Below, one piece after another: positions 48,101 to 64,000 of a stretch of 64,000 bases of DNA. Source of the DNA: Paenibacillus sp. (lineage in GTDB: Bacteria; Bacillota; Bacilli; Paenibacillales; YIM-B00363). The position numbers were made by a program, and so were the translations under genes. The stretch's first letter is position 1, and every line of letters starts with the position of its first letter. Location of the stretch: contig NZ_DASQNA010000025.1 of NCBI RefSeq assembly GCF_035645195.1, forward strand, positions 1 to 64,000, read 5' to 3'. The notes beneath the pieces are model-generated. The model did not search any database and had not been told where the DNA came from. It saw only the letters and a program-made list of their open reading frames with translations.

Positions 48101-49019
48101 GCGCCATCGATTTGACGCCGAGCGTCACGTCGTCCGCCGTCCTGTACAGACGCAGCCGATCCATATTCGGGTCGACCTGCAGCGCGTAGCCGTGCGTGCC
48201 GGCGGCGTCGGACCGGAACAACAGCGTCCCGACGGCGTAGGCGTCCTCGATCAACAAATCCGCCTCGTACGTGAAATCGTCGGCCCACACGCCGGACATC
48301 GCCTTCCCGTTTTGCCCGCTCGCGGCGGTCGCTTTCCAGCCGAGCGACGTCTGCTCCCAGTCGCCGCCGAGCTCGCTCCACCCGGCAAGGTTCGTCCTCG
48401 TTTCGTAAGCGTATACATTTTGAAAATGAGCGGTACCGTTGTATACGTGAAAGCCCAGATGCCCGTACCCGTAGGCCGTGTCTTGCGCCGAGAAGACCGG
48501 CGCGCCGTCGACGGCGACGCGAAGATTTGCGCCGTCCGCGTCGATGCGCACGCGATACCACGTTCCCGGTTCCAGCGGCATCGGCTGCGGCGGGGCGACG
48601 TCCGCTCCGGTGTCGTAGTCGAACAGCCGAACCCGGTCCAAATTCGGATCGACGCTGACGACATACCCATTCGCCCCGTCGGAAGTCGACCGGAACACGA
48701 GCGAACCGACGCCGTAGGGCGTCCCCGCGTCCACCCTAACGTCGGCTTCGAACGTAAACTTCGAGCCGACCCGGACGGTCGATATCGCGAAAACATTGGC
48801 GTCCGCCGGACCGGTTCCGCTCAGCCCGAGGCCGGGCTGCGTCGTCCACTGCCCGGAAACCGGCAAATAACCCGGGAGATTCGTAAGCCAATCGTGACCG
48901 GGCGACGCGGACGCGCCGAACGGCGTCAAGCCGGCGCTAACTGTCGCGAGCGCGAGCCAAACGCGCAGAAGCGCAGCGATCCACCGTTTGCCCCACCGTA
49001 CCTTCCCCTTGTTTACCAC
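45177..49019 (-). CDS. secreted multidomain GH32 fructanase (levanase type) with four CBM66-like modules
   Basis: A 1280-residue exported protein. After a signal peptide (about 1-38) come three CBM66-like modules (about 42-205, 210-375, 380-535), a GH32 five-blade propeller with beta-sandwich (about 538-1018), a bacterial Ig-like domain (about 1033-1113) and a fourth, more divergent CBM66-like module (about 1118-1280). Each module repeats FxFEAD, SLVFR, DPNxDRxRL and YFQNV-type strings. The catalytic triad is kept: nucleophile D558, D680 in DFRDPKV and acid/base E731 in WECPDFF. The first motif reads NWISDPCG instead of WMNDPNG. CBM66 binds the fructose ends of levan, so this enzyme probably attacks levan outside the cell. 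A GTG with GAGGGG 8 bases upstream was chosen; another GTG lies three codons earlier. Confidence 0.88.
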   Translation of the reverse strand: MVNKGKVRWGKRWIAALLRVWLALATVSAGLTPFGASASPGHDWLTNLPGYLPVSGQWTTQPGLGLSGTGPADANVFAISTVRVGSKFTFEADVRVDAGTPYGVGSLVFRSTSDGANGYVVSVDPNLDRVRLFDYDTGADVAPPQPMPLEPGTWYRVRIDADGANLRVAVDGAPVFSAQDTAYGYGHLGFHVYNGTAHFQNVYAYETRTNLAGWSELGGDWEQTSLGWKATAASGQNGKAMSGVWADDFTYEADLLIEDAYAVGTLLFRSDAAGTHGYALQVDPNMDRLRLYRTADDVTLGVKSMALDAGKVYRVRIKAEGPSIKAYVQTDFRRADGYDPAISVSDSSYAGGFAGLNAYNGTVRFDNVVVSDLRSNLGGWQSFGGTWTPHLHGRKAVSEGASDAFRFAAGQAGDVVLEGDLRVDPSTPFGTAALVFRVDEAGASGYAINIDPNLDRIRLFDLNGGATIASAAMQVEAGRWYRLEIHAKGSRIEAFVDGGSAPALAATDGRYVSGRVGLSAFNGTAYFQNVHLFPAETYYGETYRPQYHYTMALNWISDPCGLVYYDGEYHLFAQDGGTWTHAVSTDLVHWRRLPTALPWNEAGHAWTGSAVADEHDVSGLFQGGSGLIAYYTMFHPDKPGGNQKIGIAYSKDRGRTWQFYEGNPIVENPGGPDGGWDFRDPKVVRDEERGRWVMVVSGGDHVRFYTSTNLVDWTYASSFGYGNYLHGGVWECPDFFPLPVDGDPLHTKWVLAISNGAVPQNDGSSSEYFVGSFDGTTFVSDNPAGTVLRGEHGKDMYAAMTFADAPGGRRIQLGWMANWDYPFSFPTAPWKGQMSIPRELSLRTIPGQGVRLVQTPAAELRTLRGTPQSWRNIALDPQDANLLENVSGTAYEIVAEFELPSSGAATEFGFRLRERGEQRTVVGYDAAASRLFVDRSEAGRDDFAAKFTPRREAELLPDERRIRMSIFVDESSVEAFGKDGEVAFSTMMFPDAASDGLSLYTIGGRVDVVALDIYPLSDIWTGPPPSGDVPRRVVMDQALLELAEGESRRLYARVLPETAADRSVVWQSSNPEIATVSDGGDGGALVTAAKRGEARVTATTSAGAVVGTTVVRVGAFHTNAAGWTAGASAARWAAAADGISAMHDADAAYMSSAQASDFTFEADLKIDEAGGSGSLVFRASPDGSSGYYLSVTPGQRAVRLLAKVDGSFMSGPALAEAPLLLQQGTTYRVKVVASGTNIKAYLGEDAQPVIDTNDSRFAGGNFGVHVSGGRAYFQNVNFNN

Positions 49020-49033
49020 GAAAACCACCCCTC

Positions 49034-49047
49034 TGTAAGCGCTTTAT
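49034..49047 (+). promoter_or_regulatory. cre-like sequence upstream of the large fructanase gene
   Basis: TGTAAGCGCTTTAT differs from the cre consensus at the last two bases on either strand. Its place between a terminator-like hairpin and the start codon would suit a separate, CcpA-controlled promoter. Confidence 0.4.
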
Positions 49048-49063
49048 ATTTTCTGCGAAAAGA

Positions 49064-49081
49064 AAAGCACTTGCGTGCTTT
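49064..49081 (-). terminator. hairpin after the second GH32 gene
   Basis: AAAGCAC and GTGCTTT arms with a TTGC loop are followed on the minus strand by TTTCTTTTCGC. It may end or attenuate the upstream transcript before the secreted fructanase gene. Confidence 0.65.
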
Positions 49082-49091
49082 CCGTTCCCGG

Positions 49092-50579
49092 TTACCAGAT
49101 CGACTTCAAACTCCAAGCTTCGAACGTCCGAAGCCGCGCGGAACCGCCTTCGGCAAACCACGCGGCGCCCAAGCTGCTCGGATCCGGATACATCCGATTC
49201 GTCATCGTGACCGCGCCGTCGCCGGCGAACACCTCTACCGAGGACCGGTCCAAGAAGACGTGCAGCCTCAGCCCTCCGTCTTCCGCCGGTTCGACGTACG
49301 CCTCGCTCCGTCCCCCGTCGCCTGCGCCCGATCGGTCGCGGTCGACGACGAGCCGGCGCTCGCGGACGTCGTACCGGATTTCCGTATACTCGCTCCCGTC
49401 CGGCGAACACCGGAGCCGCAGCCCGAAGGCGTCCGCGCTCCCCGCTTCCCATTCCGCGACGAGCTCCAGCGCGTCGCCGCGGAGCCCGGGGATCGCCGAG
49501 ACGCCTTCTTCGACGGCGAGGGAAGACGCCGACGACGCTAGGGCGATTCGCAGCGCCCGCAGCTCCTCCGTCGGGCGCATACGCAGCTTCCCGTCGCGGC
49601 CGAGCGTCAGTTCGCGGGGAAGCGTCATCGCGCCCATCCAGCCGTCGGCCTGCTCAGGCATCGCCGCGCCCCAGATGTTCATCCACGCGAGCAGCAGCCG
49701 CCGCCCGCGGCCGTCCCGGAACGTCTGCGGCGCGTAAAAATCGAAGCCGTAGTCGAGCCGCTCGGCGTACGCGCGCCGGAACGTCCCCGTCTCGTAATCG
49801 AACGTTCCGCTCATATACATCGTCTTCGTCGCGCCCATGTTCATCGGCGACACGATCAGGACGTGCTCGCCGCCGTCGCCGAGCGGGAACAAATCCGGAC
49901 ACTCCCACATGTTCCCCTCCGTCCCGTCGCTTTCCGCCGCCACACCGATATAGCGCCATTCCCGCAAATTCCGGGAGTCGTACAACAGCGCCCGGCCTTT
50001 GCCGTTCAAGCCGCTGCCGACGACCGCGTACCACGTATCGCCCCGCTTCCACACCTTCGGGTCGCGGAAGCCGAAGACGCCCGTCTCCGGCGGAGCGGGG
50101 ATGACCGGGTTCGCCGCATCCTTCGCGAAGCGGACGCCGTCCTCGCTGACCGCAAGGCACTGCGCCTCCGGCGGCGTTCCGCCGTCGACGTGGCCGGTAT
50201 ACATCAAGACGAGCTTCCCGTCGTCTTCGACCGCGCTGCCCGACCAGCAGCCGCCCGCGCTGCCGCTCTCGTCGAGGTCGTACGGCTCCGACGGCGCGAG
50301 CGCGACCGGGAGATGCTCCCAATGCACCAGGTCGGCGCTTTTCGCGTGGCCCCAATGCATCGGCCCCTGCGTCGGGCGGTACGGGTCGTGCTGGTAAAAC
50401 GCATGATACTCGCCCCTGAAATAAACCAAGCCGTTCGGATCGTTCATCCAGCCGCCCTTCGGCATGAGATGGTAATGCAGCCGGTACCTGCGGTCGGTCA
50501 CCCGAGACTCGCTTGCCTCGAGCGCTTCGCAGGCCCGGCGAATGCCCGCCTCGTGCGCTGCGTTCGAACCCTCCCTCAT
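49092..50579 (-). CDS. intracellular GH32 beta-fructosidase (sucrose/sucrose-6-phosphate hydrolase type)
   Basis: A 495-residue GH32 enzyme without signal peptide. The catalytic residues are D47 in GGWMNDPNG, D173 in GFRDPKV and E226 in MWECPDLF; the C-terminal beta sandwich ends with SSVEVFAGDG. Motifs such as HYHLMPKGGWMNDPNG and FYQHDPYRPTQGPMHWGHAK are those of SacA/ScrB-like enzymes, which release fructose from sucrose and short fructo-oligosaccharides inside the cell. The ATG has AGGAGGG about 6 bases upstream and lies 10 bases after the previous GH32 gene. Confidence 0.92.
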   Translation of the reverse strand: MREGSNAAHEAGIRRACEALEASESRVTDRRYRLHYHLMPKGGWMNDPNGLVYFRGEYHAFYQHDPYRPTQGPMHWGHAKSADLVHWEHLPVALAPSEPYDLDESGSAGGCWSGSAVEDDGKLVLMYTGHVDGGTPPEAQCLAVSEDGVRFAKDAANPVIPAPPETGVFGFRDPKVWKRGDTWYAVVGSGLNGKGRALLYDSRNLREWRYIGVAAESDGTEGNMWECPDLFPLGDGGEHVLIVSPMNMGATKTMYMSGTFDYETGTFRRAYAERLDYGFDFYAPQTFRDGRGRRLLLAWMNIWGAAMPEQADGWMGAMTLPRELTLGRDGKLRMRPTEELRALRIALASSASSLAVEEGVSAIPGLRGDALELVAEWEAGSADAFGLRLRCSPDGSEYTEIRYDVRERRLVVDRDRSGAGDGGRSEAYVEPAEDGGLRLHVFLDRSSVEVFAGDGAVTMTNRMYPDPSSLGAAWFAEGGSARLRTFEAWSLKSIW

Positions 50580-50589
50580 GAAATCCCTC

Positions 50590-52050
50590 CTAATCGTCGT
50601 CGTGCCAAACGGAACGCAGCCGGTACAACCTCAAATATTCCACGACCGCGGTCCCTCCCTTCGCGTACAGCTCCACGCCGTCGCTGTCCGGCGAAGGGTA
50701 GATGAGCGCGGTGAACGTCTGCAGCCCGTCGTCCGCGAACGCCTCGACGCTGGAGGCATCCACGTACCCCCGCAGCGTCAGGCGGCGCGACGAACGGATG
50801 CGCGGCGCGAACATTCGCCTTGCGAAGTTCGCCGGCTGCCCGTTCCTTCCCTCGACGCCGGTGAAGCCGGAGCGCGAGCGGTCCAAGAACCACTCTCGCC
50901 TCGCGGCGTCGTACCCGATGACCGTCTCCTCCGCGCCGGATACGCACAGGCGGATGCCGACCTCCTCGGCGTCGCCGCAGTCGATCGCGAGCTCGAACTC
51001 GAAGGAGGTTCCCCGGAACCCGACGGCGACCGTTCGATCGCAAACCGGCAGCGCTTCCGCCTCGAACGCCTCCGTCCGCAGCCGTTTCAGCTCGTCGACC
51101 GGACGCTGAATAAGATGAAGCGCCTCCGCTTCCTTCGCGAGCGAGAGCGATCTGGGCACCGACAGCGCCCCCCGCCAAGGCTCGGTCGGAGCCGAGAAAG
51201 GGTACCGCCAATTCGACATCCACCCTGTCCAAATGCGCCGGCCGTCGATCGCCGGGACGTCCGAGTACGACACCGCCGCGTAGAAATCCTGACCGTAATC
51301 CGTCCACCGCGTCTCGTTCGCGGGGAGCTCGCCGACGAACCGAAACCCGTCGAACGAACCGATAAAATATTGCGCGGTCGAGCCTCCCGTTTCTTCGTTG
51401 TCCCCGATACTGACGTGCAGCACCCACTTGACGGCCCCTTCGCCGCCCTCGACGGCCAGCGGGAACAGGTCGGGACATTCCCACACCGCCGCGCGCGACC
51501 CGCAGCCTTCCCCGAATTCGCTCGCGTACGTCCAGCGAATCAGGTCGGGCGAACGGTAAAACCGGACGACCCGGTCCGCGGAGACGACCATCACCCAAGC
51601 GGCGGACGATTCGTGCCAAAACACTTTCGGGTCGCGGAAATCTTTCAGGCCGGGGTTCGGCAGGACCGGATTGCCCGCATATTTCGTCCACGTGCGCCCG
51701 CGGTCGCGGCTGTAGGCGATCCCTTGCGACTGCAGGCCTTGGTCGTACAAGGTGAAAATCGCGACGAGGCCGCTCTCGCCCCCGAACAACCCGCTCGTGT
51801 CGCGCCAATCGACGACGGCGCTGCCGGACCAAACGTCGCCCAGCTCGTCGCCGACGAGCGCGAGCGGCCGATGCTCCCAATGGAGCAGGTCGCGGCTGAT
51901 CGCGTGGCCCCATCGGCCGGTAAATTGATAAAACTGGTGATATTCTCCGTCGAAATACACCATGCCGTTCGGGTCGCTTAACGCGCCCGACGGAGGCGTC
52001 AAATGAAATTGCGGACGGTATCGCTCGCGGTAAAGCGTCTCTTTCTGCAT
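50590..52050 (-). CDS. intracellular GH32 fructanase (levanase/inulinase-like)
   Basis: The 486-residue enzyme has no signal peptide and consists of only the GH32 propeller and beta sandwich. Catalytic residues are D26 in ALSDPNGMVY, D140 in DFRDPKVFW and E191 in VWECPDLF. The pattern HLTPPSGALSDPNG with RTWTKYAGNPVL resembles the levanase/inulinase branch, and it shares the Ser before the nucleophile with the large secreted enzyme. It probably trims imported fructo-oligosaccharides. The ATG has AAGGAGG about 9 bases upstream. Confidence 0.9.
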   Translation of the reverse strand: MQKETLYRERYRPQFHLTPPSGALSDPNGMVYFDGEYHQFYQFTGRWGHAISRDLLHWEHRPLALVGDELGDVWSGSAVVDWRDTSGLFGGESGLVAIFTLYDQGLQSQGIAYSRDRGRTWTKYAGNPVLPNPGLKDFRDPKVFWHESSAAWVMVVSADRVVRFYRSPDLIRWTYASEFGEGCGSRAAVWECPDLFPLAVEGGEGAVKWVLHVSIGDNEETGGSTAQYFIGSFDGFRFVGELPANETRWTDYGQDFYAAVSYSDVPAIDGRRIWTGWMSNWRYPFSAPTEPWRGALSVPRSLSLAKEAEALHLIQRPVDELKRLRTEAFEAEALPVCDRTVAVGFRGTSFEFELAIDCGDAEEVGIRLCVSGAEETVIGYDAARREWFLDRSRSGFTGVEGRNGQPANFARRMFAPRIRSSRRLTLRGYVDASSVEAFADDGLQTFTALIYPSPDSDGVELYAKGGTAVVEYLRLYRLRSVWHDDD

Positions 52051-52113: not shown

Positions 52114-53487
52114 TTACTGCTCCAGCGTAATCTTAATGCCTTCTTCCAGCAGGTTTTTGGCGTTCGCCGCGAACGTGCCGACCGGCGAGCCGTCTTTGAT
52201 CCCCGTCACGACGGCGCCGTTCGCGTCCCAATACTTCTCGACCCCAATCGGCGCGAACAAGATGTGATCGGCCAGCTTGTTCATCAAGTCGACTTTGTCT
52301 TGGCCGAACTTTTGCGCGTTCGTTTCGGCGTTCATCTTCGCTTCGTTCTCCGACATCATCCGGATGAACGCGGCCGCGCCTTCCGGGTTTTTCGAAGCGG
52401 CCGGAATCGACCAGCCGGACAACCCGCCGGGCCCCGCGTCCGGTGCGCCTCTCGGACCGGTCGGCACCGGCACGAAGTCGATTTCGTAGTCGCTCTTCAG
52501 CACGTTGAAGCCCGCGAAGCCGTACTCCGCCGTCATGGCGAGCTTACCGTTTTTGAATTCGGCGAAGAAATAATCGCCTTCTTTTTCGCTGTCGATATAT
52601 TTGTCGTTCAAGAGCGCGTCCTGCGCGAACTGCATCGCTTCCTTCACGTTCTCGGAGTCGTAATTCGTCGTAATCGTGCCGTCGGCGTTGTAGGACAAAA
52701 TCGTTTTGCCGTTGGAGCCGACGAACAGCGGATACCCGTGATCCCACCAGCCGAAGCCGAACTGATCGTTTTTCCCGTCGCCGTCCGTGTCCATCGTCAA
52801 TTCCTTCGCGACCTCCCGGAACGTCTCCCACGTCCAATCGCCTTCGGCATAGTATTCGGAAGGCGTTTTCACCCCGTTGTTCTCGAAAAGCGTCTTATTG
52901 TAATACAGGACGATCGGCGCCGCGGACGCCCCGACCGCGTACGGCTTGCCGCCGAACGTGAACGTGTTCGTCACCGCGCCGTTCCAGAGCGGATCGGAAA
53001 TGTCGATGTACTGATCGATCGGCTGCACGATGTTTTTCAGCGGATACACCGGGAAATTCTGGTCGTTGGCCTGCGCCACGTCGACTTGGTCGCCGGCGTT
53101 GACCATGGAGATGAGCGTCGGCTTCTGGTCGCCCCACGGGACGGCGATGACCGTCACTTTGCCGCCCGTCGCCTCCTCGAACTGCGGGATCGTCTCGTAC
53201 ACGACGTCGTACGCGTCCGGGTTGGCCGCCTTGTTCTGCTCGTACTGCTCTTTGGACGTGTGGTACAAAATCGTAATATTGCCGTCGACCTTCGGCGCAT
53301 CCGCTTCCGGCTCCGCCGCCGGAGCCGAGCCGCCGGTCGTCTCGTTCGAAGCCTGCGGTTCGGACGCCGAAGGCGCATCGGCGCCGGCGCCGCCGCCGGA
53401 ACAGCCCGCGGCGAGGACCAGCAGCACCGCTGCGATCAAAGCGAGCGATAAGGACATGCGATTGCGTTTGCTTTTCATTTGATTCAT
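52114..53487 (-). CDS. extracellular solute-binding lipoprotein of the fructan importer
   Basis: A 457-residue lipoprotein with signal MSLSLALIAAVLLVL and lipobox LAAGC (Cys at about 29), then a Gly/Ala/Ser/Glu-rich tether. The mature part has CUT1 binding-protein patterns such as VIAVPWGDQKPTLISMVNAG and YAVGASAAPIVLYYNKTLF. It is directly before two cytoplasmic GH32 genes, so fructo-oligosaccharides are the probable cargo. The ATG has GGGAGG 8 bases upstream. The 143 bases before it hold GC-rich inverted repeats but no clear promoter. Confidence 0.9.
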   Translation of the reverse strand: MNQMKSKRNRMSLSLALIAAVLLVLAAGCSGGGAGADAPSASEPQASNETTGGSAPAAEPEADAPKVDGNITILYHTSKEQYEQNKAANPDAYDVVYETIPQFEEATGGKVTVIAVPWGDQKPTLISMVNAGDQVDVAQANDQNFPVYPLKNIVQPIDQYIDISDPLWNGAVTNTFTFGGKPYAVGASAAPIVLYYNKTLFENNGVKTPSEYYAEGDWTWETFREVAKELTMDTDGDGKNDQFGFGWWDHGYPLFVGSNGKTILSYNADGTITTNYDSENVKEAMQFAQDALLNDKYIDSEKEGDYFFAEFKNGKLAMTAEYGFAGFNVLKSDYEIDFVPVPTGPRGAPDAGPGGLSGWSIPAASKNPEGAAAFIRMMSENEAKMNAETNAQKFGQDKVDLMNKLADHILFAPIGVEKYWDANGAVVTGIKDGSPVGTFAANAKNLLEEGIKITLEQ

Positions 53488-53630: not shown

Positions 53631-54590
53631 TCATTTGATGCCGACGTTCTCGACGCTGTCCGTGAAGTACCGCTGCGTGGCCAAATACAAAATCAAGAGC
53701 GGCAAAATCGCGAGCAGCGAACCGGCTTGGATGCGGGTGACGACCGCGAGCGGGTCGCTGATCGTCTGCACATTGACGACGGATTCCAAATCGACCCGCA
53801 GCGAAGAAAGGGCGATCGCGAAGTTTTTCTTCAAATTGCCGAGGAACAAATTCGATAAATAGTACTCGTTCCAGTGCCAAACGAACGAGAACAGAAACAC
53901 GGTAATGACGGCGTTCTTCGCGTTCGGCAGCATGATGCGGAAAAACGTGCGGAACGGTCCGTATCCGTCGACGTAGGCGGCGTCCTCCAGCTCCTTCGGC
54001 ATGCCTTTGAAAAACTGGCGAAAGATGAAAATGTACAGCCCGGACCGCAGGCCCATCGCGAACAGCGACGGCAAATAAAAGGAAGCGTAACTGCCTACCA
54101 GGCTGACCGAATCGGGCCCGCCGAACAGCGCCGCAGTCAATGGCAGCACGCCGAACGCGTCGAAATATTTCATGTCCGCGTACAGCGGCAGCAAAATCGT
54201 CTGCGTCGGCACGACGAGCGTGAAGACGACCAGCGCGAACAGCGCGTTGGACAGCGGGAAGCGGAAGCGCGCGAACCCGTAGGCGACGAATGCGCAGGAG
54301 AACACGTCCAGCAACCCGCAGCCGACGCCGATGTACAGACTGTTCGCGAACGCGTCCCAAAAATCCATCACCCGCAGCGTATCCGCGAAATTTTGCAGCG
54401 TGAGGCTCTTCGGAATCCAGACGACGCTCGGATCCATCGCTTCCTCGGGCCGCCGCAGCGCCATGCTCAGCATATAAAGCAGCGGATACAGCAATTGATA
54501 AGCGAGGACGGCGAGCACCGCCGTCCGGAGCGCGGCCGCGGCGTTCGCGCGCAGCCGTTTGCTCCATTTCAAAGCGTACACATTCCTCAA
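53631..54590 (-). CDS. CUT1 ABC importer permease (MalG-like)
   Basis: A 319-residue permease with six TM segments and the EAA loop MPKELEDAAYVDGYGPFRTF followed by RIMLPNAKN. The start is uncertain: TTG at 54590 or GTG three codons later, neither with a strong RBS, which suggests coupling to the upstream gene 23 bases away. Confidence 0.88.
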   Translation of the reverse strand: MRNVYALKWSKRLRANAAAALRTAVLAVLAYQLLYPLLYMLSMALRRPEEAMDPSVVWIPKSLTLQNFADTLRVMDFWDAFANSLYIGVGCGLLDVFSCAFVAYGFARFRFPLSNALFALVVFTLVVPTQTILLPLYADMKYFDAFGVLPLTAALFGGPDSVSLVGSYASFYLPSLFAMGLRSGLYIFIFRQFFKGMPKELEDAAYVDGYGPFRTFFRIMLPNAKNAVITVFLFSFVWHWNEYYLSNLFLGNLKKNFAIALSSLRVDLESVVNVQTISDPLAVVTRIQAGSLLAILPLLILYLATQRYFTDSVENVGIK

Positions 54591-54613
54591 CTCGGTTCAC
54601 CGCTTTCGCTTCG

Positions 54614-55516
54614 TTAATCCTGCGCGTACACGATTCTTCGTTTCAGGAACAGGTAAGCGATCCCTAAGAACGCCCCGATTCCCGCGCAGTACAGCCATGC
54701 CAGCGCGCTGCTGTAGCCGAAGCGCACCTGCGCGAAGGCCGTGTTGTAAATCATTAAAATGACCCCGTTCCCGTAATCCGTGAACGTATCGATGATCGTG
54801 TAGACGACGTTGAGCAGCAGGATCGGCGTCAACATCGGCAGCGTAATTTTCCAAAATTGCTCCCACGGACGCGCCCCTTCGACGGACGACGCCTCATACA
54901 AGTCCGCGGAAATCGAATGAAGCCCGGCCAAAAACAGCAGCACCTGCACGCCGGAGCGCCACGTCAAATCGAAGATGCGGGCGATGACTTGGTTGAACGC
55001 TTCGATCAGCCTCGGCCCGAGCCCGAGCTCGATCAGCACCCCGTTCAACCCCGACCCGCCGAACAAATAGACGGTCTCGACCCCGCCCCGCATGCCGGAG
55101 GCGAACACGTCCTCCTTCATGATCTGCATCAGCACGCCGGAGGCGATAATGACGGGCAGGAACGCGACGGCGCGCATAAAGCCCCGCCCGCGGAAGTTGT
55201 TCTTCAGCAGCACGGCGACGAACAAGCTGTAGATCAAGATCAGCGGGACGCCGTACATGATGTTCACGAAGGAATTCGCCGCTTCGCGAACGAACTGCGG
55301 GTCTCTGAAGAGCGCGTACTCGAAATTGTCCCACCCGACGAACGTCCCCTTCAGCCCTTCCGGCGTCATCTCCATGTTGTGGAAAGCGTAGAGCAGCGAG
55401 GTAACGAAAGGGCGCGCGAAAAACAGCAGAAACCCGACGATCCACGGCAAGACGAAGAGGAAGCCGTACAGCTGCTTTTTCTTCGGGTAAGGCATCGATT
55501 TCAGTCTATGAATCAT
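54614..55516 (-). CDS. CUT1 ABC importer permease (MalF/UgpA-like)
   Basis: A 300-residue permease with six TM segments and the EAA loop LYEASSVEGARPWEQFWKIT, slightly unusual in having Glu instead of Asp before Gly-Ala. The N terminus FLFVLPWIVGFLLFFARP is typical. The ATG has AGGGG about 8 bases upstream; another ATG lies seven codons in. It follows the DUF5696 gene by 12 bases, so the fructan importer genes continue the upstream operon. Confidence 0.9.
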   Translation of the reverse strand: MIHRLKSMPYPKKKQLYGFLFVLPWIVGFLLFFARPFVTSLLYAFHNMEMTPEGLKGTFVGWDNFEYALFRDPQFVREAANSFVNIMYGVPLILIYSLFVAVLLKNNFRGRGFMRAVAFLPVIIASGVLMQIMKEDVFASGMRGGVETVYLFGGSGLNGVLIELGLGPRLIEAFNQVIARIFDLTWRSGVQVLLFLAGLHSISADLYEASSVEGARPWEQFWKITLPMLTPILLLNVVYTIIDTFTDYGNGVILMIYNTAFAQVRFGYSSALAWLYCAGIGAFLGIAYLFLKRRIVYAQD

Positions 55517-55528
55517 GGCACAAGCCCC

Positions 55529-57745
55529 CTATTGAAGTCGGTAGCCGCCCGGTTCGATGCGGTCCCGACCTACGGTCACCGTCTCCTCCGAATAATTGAC
55601 GACGACCGTTTTTCCGTTCGCGAACGTCGTCCGATACGCGCCTTCCGCCACTTTCTCGTGGTCGACGATCGGCTGCCCCATAACGCTCTTCAAGCTATCG
55701 TTCAGCTCCTCGTACTGCGCGGCGGCCGTATCGAGCCAATCGTCGAACCCGCCTCCGTACAGGCCGTCGAATTCGGTGCCGACAAGGCGGCTCGCGTCCC
55801 CGGCGATAAACCGGTACGACGGGTACGTCCCCGTCTCCAGCAGCTTCAGCATGTACCTGCGGGCGTCGCCCTTCAAGTTGATCGGCTCGCCGAAGGCCGG
55901 CCGAAGCCCGCTGATCGCGATGCTGTAGAACGGCACCGATTCGTCCGCGACGTCGAACCCGCTCGACGCGAGCGGCACATCGGCGACATGTTCCGCCGCG
56001 CCTAAAGCATACGCGTTCGCGGCGTCTAACGAGAGGCCTTGTACGCGGCCCGAGATCGAACGCAAGCTGTCCTCCCAGATGCGGCCGGTCTCGTTCTTCG
56101 CGAGCGTCTCCCGGCGGAAGTCGGAGTACACGATCGAACCGATCTGTTCGAGCGCCAGCCGCGTCAGCCCTTTGGCCTGCGCGGCAGCGCCGATCCGCTC
56201 GACGGCTTCCCGCACCGATTCCGGCTTCAGCAAATACCACGGCGCAGCGTCCCGGTCGCGTGTTCCGTTGCTGACCAAGTAGCGGTATTTGAGCGCGGGG
56301 GCGCGGCTGATGCTTCGGACGGCGTCGAAAAATTTGTGGAACCCGCTGCCGTTCCGATACAAGCCGACGGGGTCGACGACGGGGTAGAACGCCACGCCGC
56401 GCGCCTCCAAATCCCGGAGCAGCTCGCGAAACCCGCGCTCTCCTCCGAGCTTCCGCTCCGCTTTCAGCGACGCCGGCACCCGATCCTTCATGCCGCCGGC
56501 CGTCCACCCTTCATAACGGATCGATAAATTACGAATTCCGCGCTCCTGGAGCCGGCTCGCGATCGAGGCGACATCGTCGTAGTCGGTCAACGCTTCGACC
56601 GTCCGGTACGGGATGCCGAGGAACGTCTCCCGCTTCTTCACGCCGCCGAGCAGCTCGATCAGCAGCGGAATCTGCTCTCCGCCGGCGGGAGCCGCCGGCT
56701 TCACGCCCTGCTCCTCGGCGAGGTATTCGCGGTACCTCTCCGCCATGCCCGCGTAATCGGCTTTCTCCCCGGAGAGGAAAAAATACCGAACCTCGAACGA
56801 AGCGGCGCCGGCGCTCGACGCGGACGCGCGGACGACCGATTTCTCGCTCGGGCTTCCTTCCATCACCTTGTTCGTCTCGAACTCCGTCATCGCGAGGTAG
56901 CTCCATACCGCGTTGTATTGATTGTTTTTGCGGCTGACCTCCCCGGCGACGCCGGCCTGGTACGCGCCCTCGCGGATGACGGCGAGCGCCGCCGCGCCGT
57001 TGCGTTTGATGCCGAACACCGGGAGCCGGATTTTCTCGGCGAGCCTGGTTTGCCCTGGCGAAGCGATCGCTTCGTCGCCCCCGTACACCCGCTCGTTATA
57101 GCTGCGGTACATGTTTTTCCCGTTGTTGAAGCGGATGAGCGCGCCGCTGCCGTCGGGCACGAACAAATATCCGTCGTCGCGTATGCTGCCGGCCCCGAAG
57201 AGCGGCAGCAGCCCGATGGTGACGATCCCATATTCGCCGGTTTGTTCGACCCGGTCCGCGGCGATGGCCGCAGAGAACGCATCGTCCGTCAGCCGGTACG
57301 TCACCGGAATCGTAAATCCCGCCTTCGGAAAGCGGAATTCGACCTCGACGCCGCCTTCCACCCGTTTCCAGGCGAACGCGTTCTCCCGGATGCTTCCGGT
57401 ATAGTTGTTTAACTGGAACGGTTTGTTTTGCGCATCCGCGTACTCGACGAGCAGCTGCGCGTGCAAATCTTGCTTTTTCATGCCTTTGGCGATGTCGTCC
57501 GTCTCCCGGTCCTCCGGGTTGCTGCGCCAGACGGCGCCGGAAGCCGCGTCCGTCACCGCCACCTCCGCCGTCGCCGGGTTGAAATCGAGCGCCAGCGCGC
57601 CGTTCTCGGCGACGCGGACGAACCCGTTCGCGGCGGCGGCTCCGCGGGCGGTGTCCGCCGGAGCGCCGGCGGCGCACATCCCCGCGATCATCGCCGCGGC
57701 GAGGGCGAGCGATACCCGCTTTTTCCAAAACTGCAATTGCAGCAA
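55529..57745 (-). CDS. DUF5696 protein, exported, hydrolase-like build, unknown function
   Basis: The 738-residue product has an N-terminal signal (KKRVSLALAAAMIAGMCAAG), a large beta-rich domain (about 40-330) and a C-terminal part (about 345-700) that alternates strands and helices like a TIM barrel. Examples are LGIPYRTVEALTDYDDVASI, RNLSIRYEGWTAGG, GVAFYPVVDPVGL and LTRLALEQIGSIVYSD. This two-part build is like several glycoside hydrolases, so an uncharacterised glycosidase is plausible, but the catalytic residues are not known. The TTG start is chosen because AAAGGAGG lies 8 bases upstream; the longer frame begins inside that site. It sits between a Yip1 gene and permease genes with gaps of 12-30 bases. 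Confidence 0.75.
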   Translation of the reverse strand: MLQLQFWKKRVSLALAAAMIAGMCAAGAPADTARGAAAANGFVRVAENGALALDFNPATAEVAVTDAASGAVWRSNPEDRETDDIAKGMKKQDLHAQLLVEYADAQNKPFQLNNYTGSIRENAFAWKRVEGGVEVEFRFPKAGFTIPVTYRLTDDAFSAAIAADRVEQTGEYGIVTIGLLPLFGAGSIRDDGYLFVPDGSGALIRFNNGKNMYRSYNERVYGGDEAIASPGQTRLAEKIRLPVFGIKRNGAAALAVIREGAYQAGVAGEVSRKNNQYNAVWSYLAMTEFETNKVMEGSPSEKSVVRASASSAGAASFEVRYFFLSGEKADYAGMAERYREYLAEEQGVKPAAPAGGEQIPLLIELLGGVKKRETFLGIPYRTVEALTDYDDVASIASRLQERGIRNLSIRYEGWTAGGMKDRVPASLKAERKLGGERGFRELLRDLEARGVAFYPVVDPVGLYRNGSGFHKFFDAVRSISRAPALKYRYLVSNGTRDRDAAPWYLLKPESVREAVERIGAAAQAKGLTRLALEQIGSIVYSDFRRETLAKNETGRIWEDSLRSISGRVQGLSLDAANAYALGAAEHVADVPLASSGFDVADESVPFYSIAISGLRPAFGEPINLKGDARRYMLKLLETGTYPSYRFIAGDASRLVGTEFDGLYGGGFDDWLDTAAAQYEELNDSLKSVMGQPIVDHEKVAEGAYRTTFANGKTVVVNYSEETVTVGRDRIEPGGYRLQ

Positions 57746-57775
57746 GCTTTGTCCCTCCTTTCCCAAGTCCGGATG

Positions 57776-58381
57776 CTACATTCGGAACAGCAGCTCGTTG
57801 TAAATCGTGTATACGAAGAGCCAAGCCTGTTGAAATAAGGTGTAAAACAGAACGAACAAAAATACGATGATGCCCATAGCCGCGACCGTCAGCGCCAACG
57901 ACTGCACCGTCCGCGCGAAGCCGTAATCGTGTACGATCTGCATGCCGATCAGCAGGAGCGCGCCGCTCCACAGCGTGCCGACCGTCGTCATATAATGGAG
58001 AAATACGCCCTCCTCCCGCAAAAACACGTTGCTCAGCGCCGTCGCAAGCAGGAGGGACGCGACATACGGCACCAGCGCATAAGCGCTGACGATCGCGATT
58101 TGCGCCGCCTTCCCTTCGCCGTCGAGCCAGGTGGCGACTGCCCAATTGCCGACCACCCAGAGACCGAACAGCAGCGCCGTTTTCGCCCCGATCAGCCATA
58201 CGTTCAAATCGTCGGGATCGTTCATGTTGAAGGCGTACCCCGTGTTCTGCCGCTCCATCATCGCCGCCGCGAACCACGCCGCGACGATGACGACGGCTTG
58301 CATGGGCGAGCCTTTGCCTTCGTCTTTGATCGCGCCGAAGCTCTCGAACGGATGAAATACGATTTTAACGAGATTCATCAT
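57776..58381 (-). CDS. Yip1-domain membrane protein
   Basis: A 201-residue protein with five predicted TM segments of the Yip1 type. It starts MMNLVKIVFHPFESFGAIKD, the usual short cytoplasmic entry of bacterial Yip1 proteins, followed by hydrophobic blocks such as LFGLWVVGNWAVATWL and YALVPYVASLLLATALS (the latter with the conserved mid-membrane Pro). Function in bacteria is not established. It overlaps the NHL gene by 4 bases (ATGA) and precedes the DUF5696 gene by 30 bases. Confidence 0.82.
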   Translation of the reverse strand: MMNLVKIVFHPFESFGAIKDEGKGSPMQAVVIVAAWFAAAMMERQNTGYAFNMNDPDDLNVWLIGAKTALLFGLWVVGNWAVATWLDGEGKAAQIAIVSAYALVPYVASLLLATALSNVFLREEGVFLHYMTTVGTLWSGALLLIGMQIVHDYGFARTVQSLALTVAAMGIIVFLFVLFYTLFQQAWLFVYTIYNELLFRM

Positions 58382-59898
58382 AGCGCTCGTTCCCCCTTGG
58401 CCCCCGCTTCAGCCCGCGGGCCGGCCTGCGCGCCGGCCCGCGCGGCGAGGGCGGCGCGAAGCGCGCGAATCGCTTTGTAGGCGTAACGGCCGGCGATCGC
58501 CGCGAGCAGCGCCGTCATCGCGATCGGCAAATTCGCCCGCACCGCGTCGATCCGAAGATACGCGAAGCTGTCCGAGTAGCCCGACCGGTCCGCCCCTAGC
58601 TTGTAGTAATGCATGGCGGCGCGGTAATCCCCCTGCTTCTCGAGCGCTTTGGCGATCCCGACGTACGCGATGCGATTATGGACGTTCCGGACGACGACGT
58701 CCCGCCACACGTCCGCGGCTTGTTCGTACAGCCCTTCGTTGTACAGCAGCGTAGCCTTGTAGACGAGCTCCCCGTACTCCGTCCGGCGGAACGCCGTGAC
58801 GTTCCGTTTGCCCGCGTCCAAGACGACGATCGCATCGCCCCAATACGCGACGGCGGCGGGCTGCAGGAACGTCCCCTGCTGGTTGCCCAGCGCGCCGAAG
58901 ACGGCGACCGGATTGCCTTCCTGGTCGTATTCGAACACCCGGCCGCGGGTGCGGTCGAGCCCGGCGATGAAGCCGTTCCGGTCGACGTCGAGATCGACGA
59001 ACGACGTGTCCAGCGCGACCGCCCCGACGACCGGGACTTCCCGGTCGCCGAAATCGCCGCGGCCGTCGCGCCCTAGAAGTACGTTGTTGCCGAGCGGGTT
59101 CAATTTCTTAATTTCCTCGCGCGAGTTTTTCGTCACGACCGTCGTCGTGTAGACGAAACCGTCCCCTCCGATCGTCACGTTGGAATATTCGATCGGCAGC
59201 AGCTTCGCCATCCCTTCCCGCTGCTCTTTGGACAAGATGCGCTTCCAGAACGTCTCGACGAGGACGGCCGGCGTCACTTCCACCTTGTTGCTGCCGAAGT
59301 AGCCGAGGAACGCCCCGTCGCGGTCGAACTGCATCAAGCCGAAATATTGCCCTTCGGACAGCACGTAAATGCGCCCCGCTCGATCCGCGGTCACTTTCAC
59401 CGGCTTGAACGCGAAATCGTCCGGGATAAGCGCGTGCCTCGGCTTCTCGATGACGAGTTCGACCTCCCCCCGAGGGCCGACGCGCAGGACGCGCCCGTTG
59501 CCGCGGTCGGCTACATACATCGCGCCGTCCGGCCGGACGAAGACGCCGGCAGGCTCCTTCAGCGCCGTTTCGCTGCCCTTGAGCCGGAACGACTCGATCG
59601 CCTCGACCGCTTGGAACCGTTCGTCGACCTTCACGATGCGGTCGTTGCCGGTGTCGGCGATATACAAAAACCCGTCTTCGGCCGCGAATAAGTCCTGCGG
59701 TTCGTCGAAGTGCCCGACGCCCGCGTCCGCTCCGGTATACGCAGCCGCCGGTACGTAGCTGGTCGGCGCCGCCTTCGATTTCCCCCATTCGTCGTACACG
59801 TAAGCTTGGTAAGGCGCCTCGGCCCGCGCCGCCGGCAGGCAGAACAGCAAGGACGGAAGGAGCGCGGCGGCGGCGAGCAAACAACATTTCATTTTCAT
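58378..59898 (-). CDS. exported NHL/beta-propeller protein with TPR-like segment and C-terminal membrane anchor
   Basis: The 506-residue protein has a signal peptide (MKMKCCLLAAAALLPSLLF, cleavage after about 26). NHL-type repeats lie at about 60-370 (DLFAAEDGFLYIADTGNDRI; GVFVRPDGAMYVADRGNGRV; VDLDVDRNGFIAGLDRTRG). A helical TPR-like stretch follows at about 385-440 (LLYNEGLYEQAADVWRDVV; GIAKALEKQGDYRAAMHYYK) and one TM segment at about 458-476 before a basic/alanine-rich tail. It should therefore be displayed outside with the propeller free, as a binding or scaffold unit. It is coupled to Yip1 by a 4-base overlap. A gluconolactonase-like enzyme role is possible, but no metal site is evident. 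Confidence 0.8.
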   Translation of the reverse strand: MKMKCCLLAAAALLPSLLFCLPAARAEAPYQAYVYDEWGKSKAAPTSYVPAAAYTGADAGVGHFDEPQDLFAAEDGFLYIADTGNDRIVKVDERFQAVEAIESFRLKGSETALKEPAGVFVRPDGAMYVADRGNGRVLRVGPRGEVELVIEKPRHALIPDDFAFKPVKVTADRAGRIYVLSEGQYFGLMQFDRDGAFLGYFGSNKVEVTPAVLVETFWKRILSKEQREGMAKLLPIEYSNVTIGGDGFVYTTTVVTKNSREEIKKLNPLGNNVLLGRDGRGDFGDREVPVVGAVALDTSFVDLDVDRNGFIAGLDRTRGRVFEYDQEGNPVAVFGALGNQQGTFLQPAAVAYWGDAIVVLDAGKRNVTAFRRTEYGELVYKATLLYNEGLYEQAADVWRDVVVRNVHNRIAYVGIAKALEKQGDYRAAMHYYKLGADRSGYSDSFAYLRIDAVRANLPIAMTALLAAIAGRYAYKAIRALRAALAARAGAQAGPRAEAGAKGERAL

Positions 59899-59914
59899 GA
59901 CCTCTGCCTCTCCC

Positions 59915-60784
59915 TCACTTGATTCCGGCGAACGTCATCGTCTCGACGACTTTGCGCTGGAGCAGCACGAAGACGACGATCGGCGGAAGCATCAGAATGA
60001 CCGACGCCGCGGCTCCGGCGCCCATGCGGGCGATCGGGTCGCCCGCGACGATTTGCTCCAGCGCCATGCGGAACACCTTCAGCGACTCGCTGTACACCAG
60101 CTCCTTCGGCGAATAATTCCACAGGTTGATGAACTGGAAAATGACGACCGTCATGATCGCCGGCTTCGTATTCGGCCAGACGATGCGGAAGAACGTCGCG
60201 AATTCGTTCGCCCCGTCGATCCGCGCCGCTTCCAAAATCGCGTCGGGCAGCTGCTCGATGAACTGCTTCATAAGAAACAGCCCGAGCGAAGCGCCGATCC
60301 AAGGCAGAATCAGCGCGGCGTACGTGTTGACCAGCTTCAGCTCCGACATCAGAATGAATTGCGGCACGAACGTCACCTGCGGCACGAACATGAGCGCCAT
60401 GACGATGACGGAGAAGATCGCGTTCCGACCGGGGAACCGGTGCTTCGCCAGCGGATATGCGGCCATCGCGGCGAACGCGACGTGGAGAACGGTGCCGACG
60501 ACCGCCACCAATGTCGTATTGAACAAATAGCGGAACAGGGGCACCCACATATTGGTGGCGAGTTGAAACAAATCCCCGTAATTCGCGAGCGTCGGCCGCG
60601 CGACGGAGAACCGAGGCGGAAACTGCATCAGCTCGTCGATCGGCTTGAAGGACGTAATGACGGCGAACGCGAACGGCAGCGCCGAGAACAGTCCGAGCAG
60701 CGCGACGAAGCCGAAGACGAACGCGTTGCCGGCGAGCGAGCGCCGGGCCCGAATGCCGGCCTTGTTGCGAACGATGCGTATCAT
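59915..60784 (-). CDS. CUT1 ABC importer permease (MalG-like)
   Basis: A 289-residue permease with six TM segments and the EAA loop AILEAARIDGANEFATFFRI. The ATG has GGAGGG about 7 bases upstream and lies 16 bases after the preceding permease gene. Sixteen bases later follows the NHL gene, so the importer and the NHL/Yip1/DUF5696 genes are one transcript. Confidence 0.9.
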   Translation of the reverse strand: MIRIVRNKAGIRARRSLAGNAFVFGFVALLGLFSALPFAFAVITSFKPIDELMQFPPRFSVARPTLANYGDLFQLATNMWVPLFRYLFNTTLVAVVGTVLHVAFAAMAAYPLAKHRFPGRNAIFSVIVMALMFVPQVTFVPQFILMSELKLVNTYAALILPWIGASLGLFLMKQFIEQLPDAILEAARIDGANEFATFFRIVWPNTKPAIMTVVIFQFINLWNYSPKELVYSESLKVFRMALEQIVAGDPIARMGAGAAASVILMLPPIVVFVLLQRKVVETMTFAGIK

Positions 60785-60800
60785 AAGGCGCCCTCCTTCG

Positions 60801-61697
60801 TCATATTCCCACTTTGTGCAGCAGCTTCGTCACCGTCCGGTTCGTCGCGACCATCATCGCGAACAGGACGACGGCCATCGCCGACGCATAGCCCATTTCG
60901 TACCGGATGCTGCCGAAGTCCATAATGTGCGTGACGATCGTCTCCCCCGCGTACTCGGTGCTCGGGAAGCCGGCGAGCTGAATCGAGACGTCGGCGACGC
61001 CGAACGAGATGACGATTTGCATGACCGCGCCGAACACGAGCTGCGGAATCATCGAAGGCAGCGTAATATACCACAGCTCTTGGAACCGGTTTTGGATGCC
61101 GTCGACGACCCCCGCTTCGTACAGACTCGGGTCGACCGTCTGCAGCCCCGCGACGAACGCCAGGAAGCTAATGCCCATGCTCATCCACAGCTGCACCAGA
61201 ATAAGAACGCCCAGCAAATAATTTTGGTCGATCAACCACGCGACGGGCTCGCTGACGATCCCGAGGCTGAGCAGCGTGCCGTTCAAATATCCGTAAGCGT
61301 CGGGACTGAAAATGAGCCGCCACATCGGATAGACGGAGACGCCGACGATGGCGGGGATGTAAAACAGCACCATCGCGATCGACCGGATCGTCCGCGACAA
61401 ATCGTTGATGATCCAAGCGACGACGAAGCTGAGCACGTAGCTGACCGGCCCCGTCACGAAGGCGAACAGCATCGTGTTTTTCAGCGCGACGATGAACACG
61501 TCGTCGTCCAAAAACAGTCGGATGTAGTTGTACCAGCCGATGAACCGCGGCGGTTCGATCAGGTTGAAGTACGTAAATCCGAGCGCGATCGACAGCGCCA
61601 CCGGCACGATGGTGAACGCGATAAAGAAAATCATGTACGGGGCCATTAACAAGTAACTTTCCCGGTGTTTGCCGAGTGCGGACGCCCAGCCTCTCAT
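60801..61697 (-). CDS. CUT1 ABC importer permease (MalF-like)
   Basis: A 298-residue permease with six TM segments. The EAA loop LYEAGVVDGIQNRFQELWYI carries a short insertion compared with other permeases here. It overlaps the 3' end of the binding-protein gene by 4 bases, so stoichiometric translation is likely. It begins MRGWASALGKHRESYLLMAP. Confidence 0.9.
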   Translation of the reverse strand: MRGWASALGKHRESYLLMAPYMIFFIAFTIVPVALSIALGFTYFNLIEPPRFIGWYNYIRLFLDDDVFIVALKNTMLFAFVTGPVSYVLSFVVAWIINDLSRTIRSIAMVLFYIPAIVGVSVYPMWRLIFSPDAYGYLNGTLLSLGIVSEPVAWLIDQNYLLGVLILVQLWMSMGISFLAFVAGLQTVDPSLYEAGVVDGIQNRFQELWYITLPSMIPQLVFGAVMQIVISFGVADVSIQLAGFPSTEYAGETIVTHIMDFGSIRYEMGYASAMAVVLFAMMVATNRTVTKLLHKVGI

Positions 61698-64000
61698 CGT
61701 TCGCTCACCCCGAATTCATACCGCTTCCTTAGCAGTTCTTCATTGATTTGTTTGTTCCAGGCGAACAGCGCTTCCCGCGGATTTTCCATGGAAAATACGA
61801 CGCTTCGGAACGCGTTGTCGATATTTCTCGATGTGTAGTAGCCTCCCGGCAGTTCGGGAATTTCCTTCACGTGCCGCCATTGCTCGAGCAGCGCCGACTG
61901 CTCGCCCCGGCTCCAGTTCGTGCGCGCGAACGCGTCGAGATTCGCCGGCGATCTTCGGCCGAGCACGCCCATTTCGTTCTCCAACTCGAGCGCGAACCGG
62001 CTTTGGGTGTCGGCTCGGTTCCACCATTTGAGGAACGTCCAGGCGTCCTCTACATTGTCGGCGTCCTTCAAGATGATGCCGGCTTTCCCCGTGGCCGCCG
62101 TCGATCGGTCGACGGCGCCGTCCGGCTGCCGCACGCCCGGAATCGGCCGCATGCTCCATGTGCCCGCGATTTCGGGCGCCGCTTTGACGAGCCGGTTGTA
62201 CAGCTTATAACTTTCGATCACGATCGGCATTTCGCCGGAACGGAACCGATTGAACGAGTCCTTGTACAGCGGGTAATCGTACAGCCGGTAAAAGTCGGTC
62301 CACTGCTTGAACGCCCGATACGCCTCCGGCTCGTCAAGGCGCGTGGCGGCGCCCGCCTCGTCGTACATGCCGGAGCCGTTCTGCATGAGCAGCGTCGGGA
62401 ACAAATTCAATGTGCCCGTTCCGCGCGCAAGCAGCTGGTAAGCGTCCAAATCTTCGTAAGGCAAGCCGATTTGGAGATGTTTGTTTTGCAGCGCCGGCGC
62501 GATGTCGAGCAGCTCCTCCCACGTCTCGGGCGGCTCGATGCCGAGCTCCGAGACAATGTCGTCCCGCACGAACATCATGAAAAATTCCTGCTCGTCGGGT
62601 ATCGCGTACGTGCGGCTCTCGTAACGATACGGGACGAACGCGGACGGCATGTACGGCCGCGCGACCTCCTCGAAATCCTCGAACGCATCGAGCGGCGCGA
62701 GCGCGCCCCGGAAGGCGAGATTCATCGCGTCGCCGCGATTCGTCAGCAGGCTGACGTCCGGTCCTTCGCCCGACATGACGGCCGGCACCAGCGCGTTCTC
62801 GACGAGATTGAACCGCACCGCGATGCCGGTTTCGGGGGTGAACGCCTCGTCGATCAACCGTTTCACGACGTACGCTTGGTCGCGTCCGAGCCCCGTCCAC
62901 ACCTCGATGGAGTGTTCCCCGTCCGCCTCGTTCCCGAGCGTATCGTAGTTTTCCACGAACGAACCGGCGAACGCCCGCAGCTCGTGAGCCGCTTTGCCAA
63001 GCGCGCTCGCCTCGGCCCGAGGCTTCGGCTCCCCCGGAGAAGCAAGGTATAAATAATCCAATTCCAGCGGCTGGCTCGTGACCGTCAGCATCCAGTCCGC
63101 GAGCGCCGTCAAATTCGTTTTGTAGCTGTCGAGCCGTCTCGGAATCGTGTCCGGCCGGTCGATAAAGCTGTCGATCTGCCGCGCGAGCAGCTCCAGCGAG
63201 CGTGTCCCGGCGTTCCCCCCGCCCGTCAGCGATTCTAGGCGCTCGGCTTCCGCCTTCATCCGCTCCGACAGCGCTTCGAACGCGGGCAGCAGCTCCGGGA
63301 TGCTCTTCTCCAGCTCGTAATCGCGGTACGGGTCGGGCCGGACGCCCGTAATCATGACGATCTGCCGGTACATCCGCTGGTGCTCCGCCGTCATGTCTTT
63401 GACCGCCTGGATGGAAGGCGCCAATTCCCCGAGCGTGACTTCCATACGAATTTCATGCATGCCTTTCGTCAAATACACGAGGTACGGCTTGCCGTTGCCG
63501 CCGCCCGGCTCTCGGACCGCCCAGTCGAGCCCGTAAGGGAAGCGGACGTTTTGCAGCTCCTCGAACGGAACGGCGCCGTCGATCGCGATCTTTCGGGACA
63601 CGAACGCGCCCTTCACCTTGTTTTGGCGGTAACGCATGCCGATTTTGTACCAACCGTCCTTCGGAACCTCCGCCTGCCAGCTGATCCATTGCCCCGGCGT
63701 ATCCCAGTTGCTGCCGCCGATCGTATTCACTCGAAGCTTCACCGGATGGTACGGCTCCGTTAGCGGACTTGCGCGGTCCATCGTCGGATACAGCCCCGAG
63801 GACGACTTCAAGTACGCCTGCTCGGCCTGCATCTTGACGATCACGTCGCCGGCGCGCTCGGCCTCGCCCCCCGCGGCTGCAACGCCTTGGCTGCGGACGT
63901 ACTCCGCGTACGGCGCCGGAGCCGCCCGCTTGGCGAGCGTTACGTCCGCGATGACGGCTCCCTCCCGGACGCTCTCGATCCGGATCCGGCGGCGCCCCTT
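61694..64000 (-). CDS. extracellular solute-binding protein fused to an N-terminal beta-sandwich domain (5' end outside window)
   Basis: 768 codons are in the window and the frame stays open to the right edge; the in-frame GTG at 63844 is internal. The C-terminal half (about 315-768 of the visible part) is a CUT1 binding protein: VWTGLGRDQAYVVKRLIDEA, GPDVSLLTNRGDAMNLAF, YAIPDEQEFFMMFVRDDI and ESYKLYNRLVKAAPEIAGTW. The N-terminal part looks like a carbohydrate-binding beta sandwich (GGSNWDTPGQWISWQAEVPK; YKIGMRYRQNKVKGAFVSRK; MHEIRMEV), followed by a helical linker with YRQIVMITGVRPDPY. Most binding proteins lack such an extension, so this one may capture polymer ends or sit in a larger surface complex. 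Signal peptide and start lie beyond the edge. Confidence 0.85.
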   Translation of the reverse strand, partial: KGRRRIRIESVREGAVIADVTLAKRAAPAPYAEYVRSQGVAAAGGEAERAGDVIVKMQAEQAYLKSSSGLYPTMDRASPLTEPYHPVKLRVNTIGGSNWDTPGQWISWQAEVPKDGWYKIGMRYRQNKVKGAFVSRKIAIDGAVPFEELQNVRFPYGLDWAVREPGGGNGKPYLVYLTKGMHEIRMEVTLGELAPSIQAVKDMTAEHQRMYRQIVMITGVRPDPYRDYELEKSIPELLPAFEALSERMKAEAERLESLTGGGNAGTRSLELLARQIDSFIDRPDTIPRRLDSYKTNLTALADWMLTVTSQPLELDYLYLASPGEPKPRAEASALGKAAHELRAFAGSFVENYDTLGNEADGEHSIEVWTGLGRDQAYVVKRLIDEAFTPETGIAVRFNLVENALVPAVMSGEGPDVSLLTNRGDAMNLAFRGALAPLDAFEDFEEVARPYMPSAFVPYRYESRTYAIPDEQEFFMMFVRDDIVSELGIEPPETWEELLDIAPALQNKHLQIGLPYEDLDAYQLLARGTGTLNLFPTLLMQNGSGMYDEAGAATRLDEPEAYRAFKQWTDFYRLYDYPLYKDSFNRFRSGEMPIVIESYKLYNRLVKAAPEIAGTWSMRPIPGVRQPDGAVDRSTAATGKAGIILKDADNVEDAWTFLKWWNRADTQSRFALELENEMGVLGRRSPANLDAFARTNWSRGEQSALLEQWRHVKEIPELPGGYYTSRNIDNAFRSVVFSMENPREALFAWNKQINEELLRKRYEFGVSER

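Follow-up and report, generated by a model that had tools for sequence, protein, structure and literature searches.

What do DUF5696, bacterial Yip1 and NHL-TPR, three protein families of no known function, contribute when their genes are packed between two CUT1-type sugar importers? The question is raised by a block of genes in Paenibacillus sp. (assembly GCF_035645195.1, genome 5.95 Mb), found in the window analysed here, which comprises bases 1-64000 of the 389-kb contig NZ_DASQNA010000025.1. Our results suggest that this block is a cassette, present in soil bacteria of the Paenibacillus group and in other Bacillota, whose products form a so far undescribed machinery for the capture and uptake of polysaccharide fragments. 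The evidence consists of its gene order, its linkage across genomes, the divergence of its paralogues, its variable neighbours and the predicted fold of DUF5696.

Gene order and conservation of the cassette

The block contains eight tightly packed genes, listed here in the order of transcription.

61694-64552, minus strand (61694..64000 inside the window, the rest past its edge): SBPbig, a 952-aa anchored binding protein with an SBP_bac domain
60801-61697, minus strand: permease A1, MalF/UgpA-type CUT1
59915-60784, minus strand: permease A2, MalG/UgpE-type CUT1
58378-59898, minus strand: NHL-TPR, an exported NHL beta-propeller with a TPR-like part and a C-terminal hydrophobic helix
57776-58381, minus strand: Yip1-domain multi-pass membrane protein
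55529-57766, minus strand: DUF5696, an exported protein of predicted GH129/GH101 fold (GH, glycoside hydrolase), with E540 and D581 at unconserved catalytic positions
54614-55516, minus strand: permease B, MalF/UgpA-type CUT1
53631-54590, minus strand: permease C, MalG/UgpE-type CUT1

The spacings from SBPbig through permease C are -4, 16, 16, -4, 9, 12 and 23 bases, and no terminator-like or promoter-like site inside the block rose above shuffle expectation. A reading made earlier from the sequence alone had described nine tightly packed genes. All of the named genes are present at the positions it gave, on the minus strand, and the block is tight, but it holds eight genes; the ninth, encoding the binding protein SBP1, follows 143 bases downstream of permease C. 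Pfam matches were strong for DUF5696 (622 bits), clear for Yip1 (1e-12) and NHL (7e-10, with a weak TPR match), and BPD_transp_1 was found in the four permeases.

Within the order, 85 of 151 genomes carried DUF5696 above the cut-off, as did 39 of 398 sampled Bacillota genomes, often with several copies per genome (4 in this genome, 14 in its relative G005). We compared 92 loci from across the Bacillota, all selected for the presence of DUF5696; about 90 neighbourhoods were fetched, and about 30 were picked from the wider phylum sample. NHL-TPR lay directly upstream of DUF5696 in 91 of the 92 loci, the exception (L104) being a contig end. Yip1 was present in 91 (89 by script, with L070 and L178 added by manual reading), and in 91 the genes immediately downstream encoded a permease pair, or one or more recognised permeases. 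NHL-TPR and Yip1 were fused into one protein in 56 of the 92 loci.

Since these loci had been picked by DUF5696 itself, the converse test was made with an NHL-TPR profile across 25 genomes, in which every strong match scored 445 bits or more and unrelated NHL proteins stayed at 80 bits or below. For 79 of the 81 strong matches, a DUF5696 gene followed downstream on that strand at a distance of no more than 3 kb, and NHL-TPR was upstream of 79 of the 82 DUF5696 matches. The exceptions were contig edges (G004, G003) and one swapped gene order (G211). Three genomes free of DUF5696 (G020, G027, G030) gave no strong NHL-TPR match. This reciprocal linkage rules out chance adjacency or a local oddity. 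The sequence-only reading would have been refuted had the genes lain apart in most genomes; when this was checked, linkage was essentially complete in both directions. The same reading had looked to the Paenibacillaceae for conservation: the neighbourhood is indeed conserved, but that scope was too narrow, as the cassette occurs in many Bacillota families.

Paralogous cassettes within one genome can be compared without any part played by species divergence. In this comparison, the distances among copies of DUF5696, NHL-TPR, SBPbig and the permeases correlated with one another (rho 0.61-0.88). The parts of the cassette duplicate and diverge as a set, a correlation that is by itself no proof of contact. 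Taken together, near-complete linkage both ways and joint paralogue divergence bear out the proposal that the three middle proteins form one set with each other and with the importers.

The structure of a fused NHL-TPR-Yip1 protein from another cassette of this genome was modelled with a predicted local distance difference test (pLDDT) score of 91.7. The model consists of a signal helix, a propeller (residues 33-383), TPR-like helices (385-446), a long helix (449-492) and a Yip1 bundle (508-709). Its propeller resembles NHL domains such as those of TRIM71 and Thin.

Importers, binding proteins and neighbouring enzymes

The best NCBIfam matches of the four permeases were UgpA, UgpE, GlcT, GlcU and MalG, all below the equivalog cut-offs. 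The EAA coupling loop is visible by eye in all four; crude patterns applied across families gave uneven counts. SBP_bac_1/8 domains are present in both SBPbig and SBP1. In SBPbig, a hydrophobic anchor at the N-terminus is followed by two beta-sandwich-like repeats (with only a weak CBM35 match) and a C-terminal SBP domain at residues 563-854.

Of the 92 loci, 72 had SBPbig upstream and 5 others had it downstream. Using a profile of its N-terminal 500 residues, we found strong matches only in genomes that carry DUF5696 and none in the 12 scored genomes without it. The copy numbers of the SBPbig N-terminus and DUF5696 were equal in G000, the genome studied here (4/4), in G001 (5/5) and in G005 (14/14). 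Where GH106 and GH42 stood in place of SBPbig (G041, G061, G097), a copy of SBPbig lay about 27-30 kb away on the same contig; in G143, its copies were on other contigs. Genes for GH42 and GH106 occupy the place of SBPbig and A1/A2 together in L118, L119, L128 and L129.

SBP1 is a variable partner, absent from some other cassettes and present in multiple copies in others. In L156 and L159 (both downstream of DUF5696) and in L114, three to five genes for SBP1-type binding proteins stand in tandem after the cassette, which gives the impression that a single importer pair works with several interchangeable binding proteins.

In about 22 loci, the gene for a MalK-type ATPase (ABC_tran, OB_MalK, TOBE_2) precedes SBPbig by no more than 51 bases, and two of the three other cassettes of this genome have such a linked ATPase. 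The operon of the cassette in the window contains none, and therefore its ATPase would come from elsewhere in the genome, where several of this type are encoded.

The enzymes next to the cassette differ from locus to locus. Carbohydrate-active enzyme (CAZyme) neighbours include GH32, GH113 with GH2, GH26 with CBM35, GH51, GH106, GH42, GH35, GH38, GH43 and GH3, as well as GH29 with an F5/8 domain, GH5 with CBM46, alginate lyase and PcRGLX. GH32 adjoins only five of the sampled cassettes (the window, L068, L069, L113 and L122); other CAZymes adjoin the remaining ones, ruling out a fructan-specific system. The constant core is not substrate-specific, whereas SBP1 and the CAZymes vary, and this is the main reason for regarding the cassette as a general glycan-uptake machine. 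Its placement beside CAZymes for many polymers makes a role in polysaccharide uptake well grounded.

In the window, SBP1 and three GH32 genes follow the block on the same strand.

52114-53487, minus strand: SBP1, a lipoprotein binding protein
50590-52050, minus strand: GH32, substrate-specific neighbour
49092-50579, minus strand: GH32, substrate-specific neighbour
45177-49028, minus strand: large secreted GH32 with LamG-like and Big_2 domains

The block is surrounded by six GH32 genes (three of them past the window), a histidine kinase with a cache domain, an AraC-type response regulator and a ROK sugar kinase. These genes indicate that the larger locus serves fructan. The six GH32 genes span about 31 kb (45177-52050 in the window and 4680-16454 of L009). 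The large GH32 protein has 1283 aa, with repeated LamG/3-keto-disaccharide-hydrolase-like domains and one Big_2 domain. Two more SBP genes and another permease pair lie past the window edge.

Fold and catalytic positions of DUF5696

The structure of DUF5696 was modelled from a 77-sequence alignment (pLDDT 94.2; predicted template modelling (TM) score, pTM, 0.94). In the model, an N-terminal beta-sandwich is followed by a TIM barrel and a C-terminal beta domain. Among solved structures, two GH129 enzymes came closest, ZgGH129 and NagBb (E as low as 6e-32; target TM 0.67-0.71), followed by GH101, a Flavonifractor galactosaminidase and GH36. A sequence profile also links DUF5696 to GH129 (E ~1e-14), at about 15% identity. 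The Pfam GH129 model (PF11308) gave no match to DUF5696 at E<=1, the only matches being DUF5696 itself and a weak DUF4988. The hydrolase-like build noticed in the sequence-only reading is thus borne out by the model. GH129 sequences for a direct profile comparison were not found in Bacillota or plasmids, and a PHROGs search gave no result.

A previous study identified D486 of ZgGH129 and D435 of NagBb as the conserved nucleophile candidate, and showed that ZgGH129 is inactivated by mutation of Asp202, Asp486, Glu517 or Glu531; the second catalytic residue differs between the two enzymes (PMC5698469). We mapped the catalytic positions onto DUF5696 by profile alignment, not by structural superposition. 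A strand-4 Asp (YVDQIG/YVDVWG) aligned to position 501, residue 540 of the window protein, in DUF6259 (95% probability) and weakly in a GH101 sequence (6.9%). The strand-5 Glu of DUF6259 aligned to position 542, which is residue 581. The nucleophile column was acidic in 19 of the 77 sequences and the acid/base column in 33; both were acidic in 9 and neither in 34. With conservation ranks of 516 and 525 among 681 columns, the two are among the most variable. Relatives from fructan loci have Gln (L068, L069, L113) or Glu (L122) at residue 540. The column opposite ZgGH129 Asp202 in the profile alignment held Glu in 27, Gln in 16 and Gly in 7 of the 77 sequences. As a control, the GH32 proteins in cassette loci all retain the RDP motif (22/22).

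We conclude, on sequence grounds, that most DUF5696 proteins would not act as hydrolases of the GH129/GH101 type. Membership of DUF5696 in GH129 as a straightforward enzyme is ruled out by the unconserved dyad, which also makes a binding or scaffold role likelier.

The DUF6259 proteins (L189:802-2790; L190-L195), distantly related to DUF5696, keep the YVDQIG-like strand-4 Asp and the strand-5 Glu and are probable, uncharacterised active glycosidases. Among the weak DUF5696 matches, only L189 (DUF6259) is a true relative; L186-L188 resemble alpha-amylase-type and branching enzymes in sequence. A phmmer search with a DUF6259 relative gave spurious matches only.

Proposed role, rival explanations and relation to known systems

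With moderate confidence, we propose that the cassette couples two CUT1 importers to an obligate NHL-TPR/Yip1/DUF5696 module and the anchored SBPbig, with DUF5696 serving as a non-catalytic glycan platform. In the window, fructan would be cut by secreted or surface GH32 enzymes, and the resulting oligosaccharides may be held at the membrane by SBPbig and by DUF5696, a putative pseudo-glycosidase derived from GH129. The NHL propeller and TPR part, tied to the membrane by Yip1, would dock both DUF5696 and SBPbig onto the permeases. Import of the oligosaccharides would then fall to the pairs A1/A2 and B/C, with energy from a MalK/MsmX-type ATPase encoded elsewhere. One importer might handle long products and the other short ones, or both might work in one assembly; other copies of the cassette would serve other polymers. 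The idea that the system binds and delivers a polymer stands as a supported interpretation, while the idea that DUF5696 processes the polymer lacks support, its positions matching the GH129/GH101 dyad being unconserved. More tentatively, and with some doubt, the parts may assemble stably in the membrane, with a propeller-TPR-Yip1 scaffold linking two ATP-binding cassette (ABC) importers to a pseudo-glycosidase and a tethered binding protein, in up to about 14 paralogues per genome, each with its own substrates; such a complex would be the Gram-positive counterpart of SusCD-type glycan capture.

Several observations weigh against the proposed coupling and the non-catalytic platform. SBPbig and A1/A2 are not adjacent to the rest in L118, L119, L128, L129 and several non-Bacilli loci, SBPbig being found elsewhere in the genome, and joint inheritance alone can also produce correlated divergence. 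The catalytic mapping depends on sequence profiles, namely those of DUF6259, itself uncharacterised, and one weak GH101 match. The window DUF5696 has acids at both mapped positions (E540 and D581), and acids conserved throughout the family (D205, D231, D549, D608 and E644) could catalyse in another way. These acids also favour the view that DUF5696 proteins make up a new family of active glycoside hydrolases close to GH129, at work in an ordinary Gram-positive locus, with an active site adapted in each paralogue to the linkage it cuts. The GH129-type fold, the detectable homology to solved GH129 enzymes and the difference in the second catalytic residue between ZgGH129 and NagBb (PMC5698469) point the same way. 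Yet a retaining-type dyad should be conserved, and both columns are highly variable; Glu and Gln are exchanged even among fructan-context copies, the column matching Asp202 of ZgGH129 is non-acidic in most copies, and catalytic families in the same loci keep their motifs, as GH32 does. We therefore regard an active DUF5696 hydrolase as unlikely.

Propellers and TPRs are interaction modules and Yip1 is a membrane domain, so that NHL-TPR-Yip1 and DUF5696 might instead sense or regulate the activity or expression of the importer, for example by passing a signal to the sensor kinase encoded nearby. Genes for histidine kinases and response regulators do lie near the window cassette and several others, but they are found near some cassettes only, whereas the core does not vary, and domain searches found no signalling domain in the three middle proteins; this role is less likely still. 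The same TPR and propeller architecture, together with the tight translational coupling to the permeases, would also suit an aid to the folding or assembly of binding proteins and enzymes at the interface of membrane and cell wall. One copy per importer set and co-divergence fit a stoichiometric partner better than a general chaperone, family searches gave no chaperone match for the middle proteins, and we consider such an aid improbable. Operons can be passed on as blocks, and a frozen operon of independent parts would need no functional coupling at all. That explanation is hardly credible against near-complete reciprocal linkage over many families, gene fusion, and persistence of the set through many duplications with differing substrate genes.

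The proposed coupled uptake system shares several parts with CUT1 importers (MalEFGK2, Msm; MsmX/MsmK ATPase): a lipoprotein SBP, MalF/MalG-type pairs, and a MalK-type ATPase linked or in trans. Unlike them, it has two permease pairs, with at most one ATPase gene seen, and adds the obligate NHL-TPR, Yip1 and DUF5696 and the anchored SBP of about 1000 aa. To our knowledge, none of these four additions is among the parts of described CUT1 systems. DUF5696 shares the sandwich, TIM barrel and C-terminal beta domain of GH129 (NagBb, ZgGH129/DagB) and GH101 enzymes but not their conserved catalytic positions. Like the polysaccharide utilization loci (PULs) of Bacteroidota, the modules occur in many copies beside differing CAZymes and combine a transporter in the membrane with proteins that bind glycans at the surface; a regulator is often present too. 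They differ from SusC/SusD systems in using ABC importers in a one-membrane cell, so that the likeness is in role only; a domain search found no SusC/SusD domain in the locus, including the TonB-dependent SusC. Gram-positive PULs (gpPULs) likewise cluster an ABC importer, a regulator and CAZymes, as in the Paenibacillus loci of PMC4765114 and PMC12827396, but their definition lacks NHL, Yip1 and DUF5696, which are unmentioned in these two papers on Paenibacillus polysaccharides. No paper with the term DUF5696 was found in the searched literature, outside which many subscription papers and preprints lie, and searches with NHL, Yip1, Paenibacillus and Caldicellulosiruptor found no description of the cassette, an absence that is no proof. 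The importers belong to a known type, and the obligate accessory module appears to be undescribed.

Beyond single binding proteins, how Gram-positive bacteria hold glycans and hand them over to ABC importers is poorly understood, and the cassette gives a handle on this step. It would assign a role to the three middle families and provides an example of a glycosidase fold that seems to have become a partner without catalytic function. The cassette may also serve as an annotation marker for glycan-uptake loci, whose neighbours then hint at the substrate.

The three further cassettes of this genome are L070 (G000:C45:62000-81500), L071 (G000:C25:132000-151500) and L072 (G000:C8:79000-98500). L070 adjoins Gfo/Idh/MocA oxidoreductases, and L072 adjoins a PcRGLX-type lyase. 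A subfamily of long DUF5696 proteins (~850-870 aa), in which NHL-TPR and Yip1 are unfused, was observed in L073, L090, L105, L106, L107, L108 and L109. It spans several families of the order, with GH113 and GH2 as neighbours in L073 and GH5 and CBM46 in L106.

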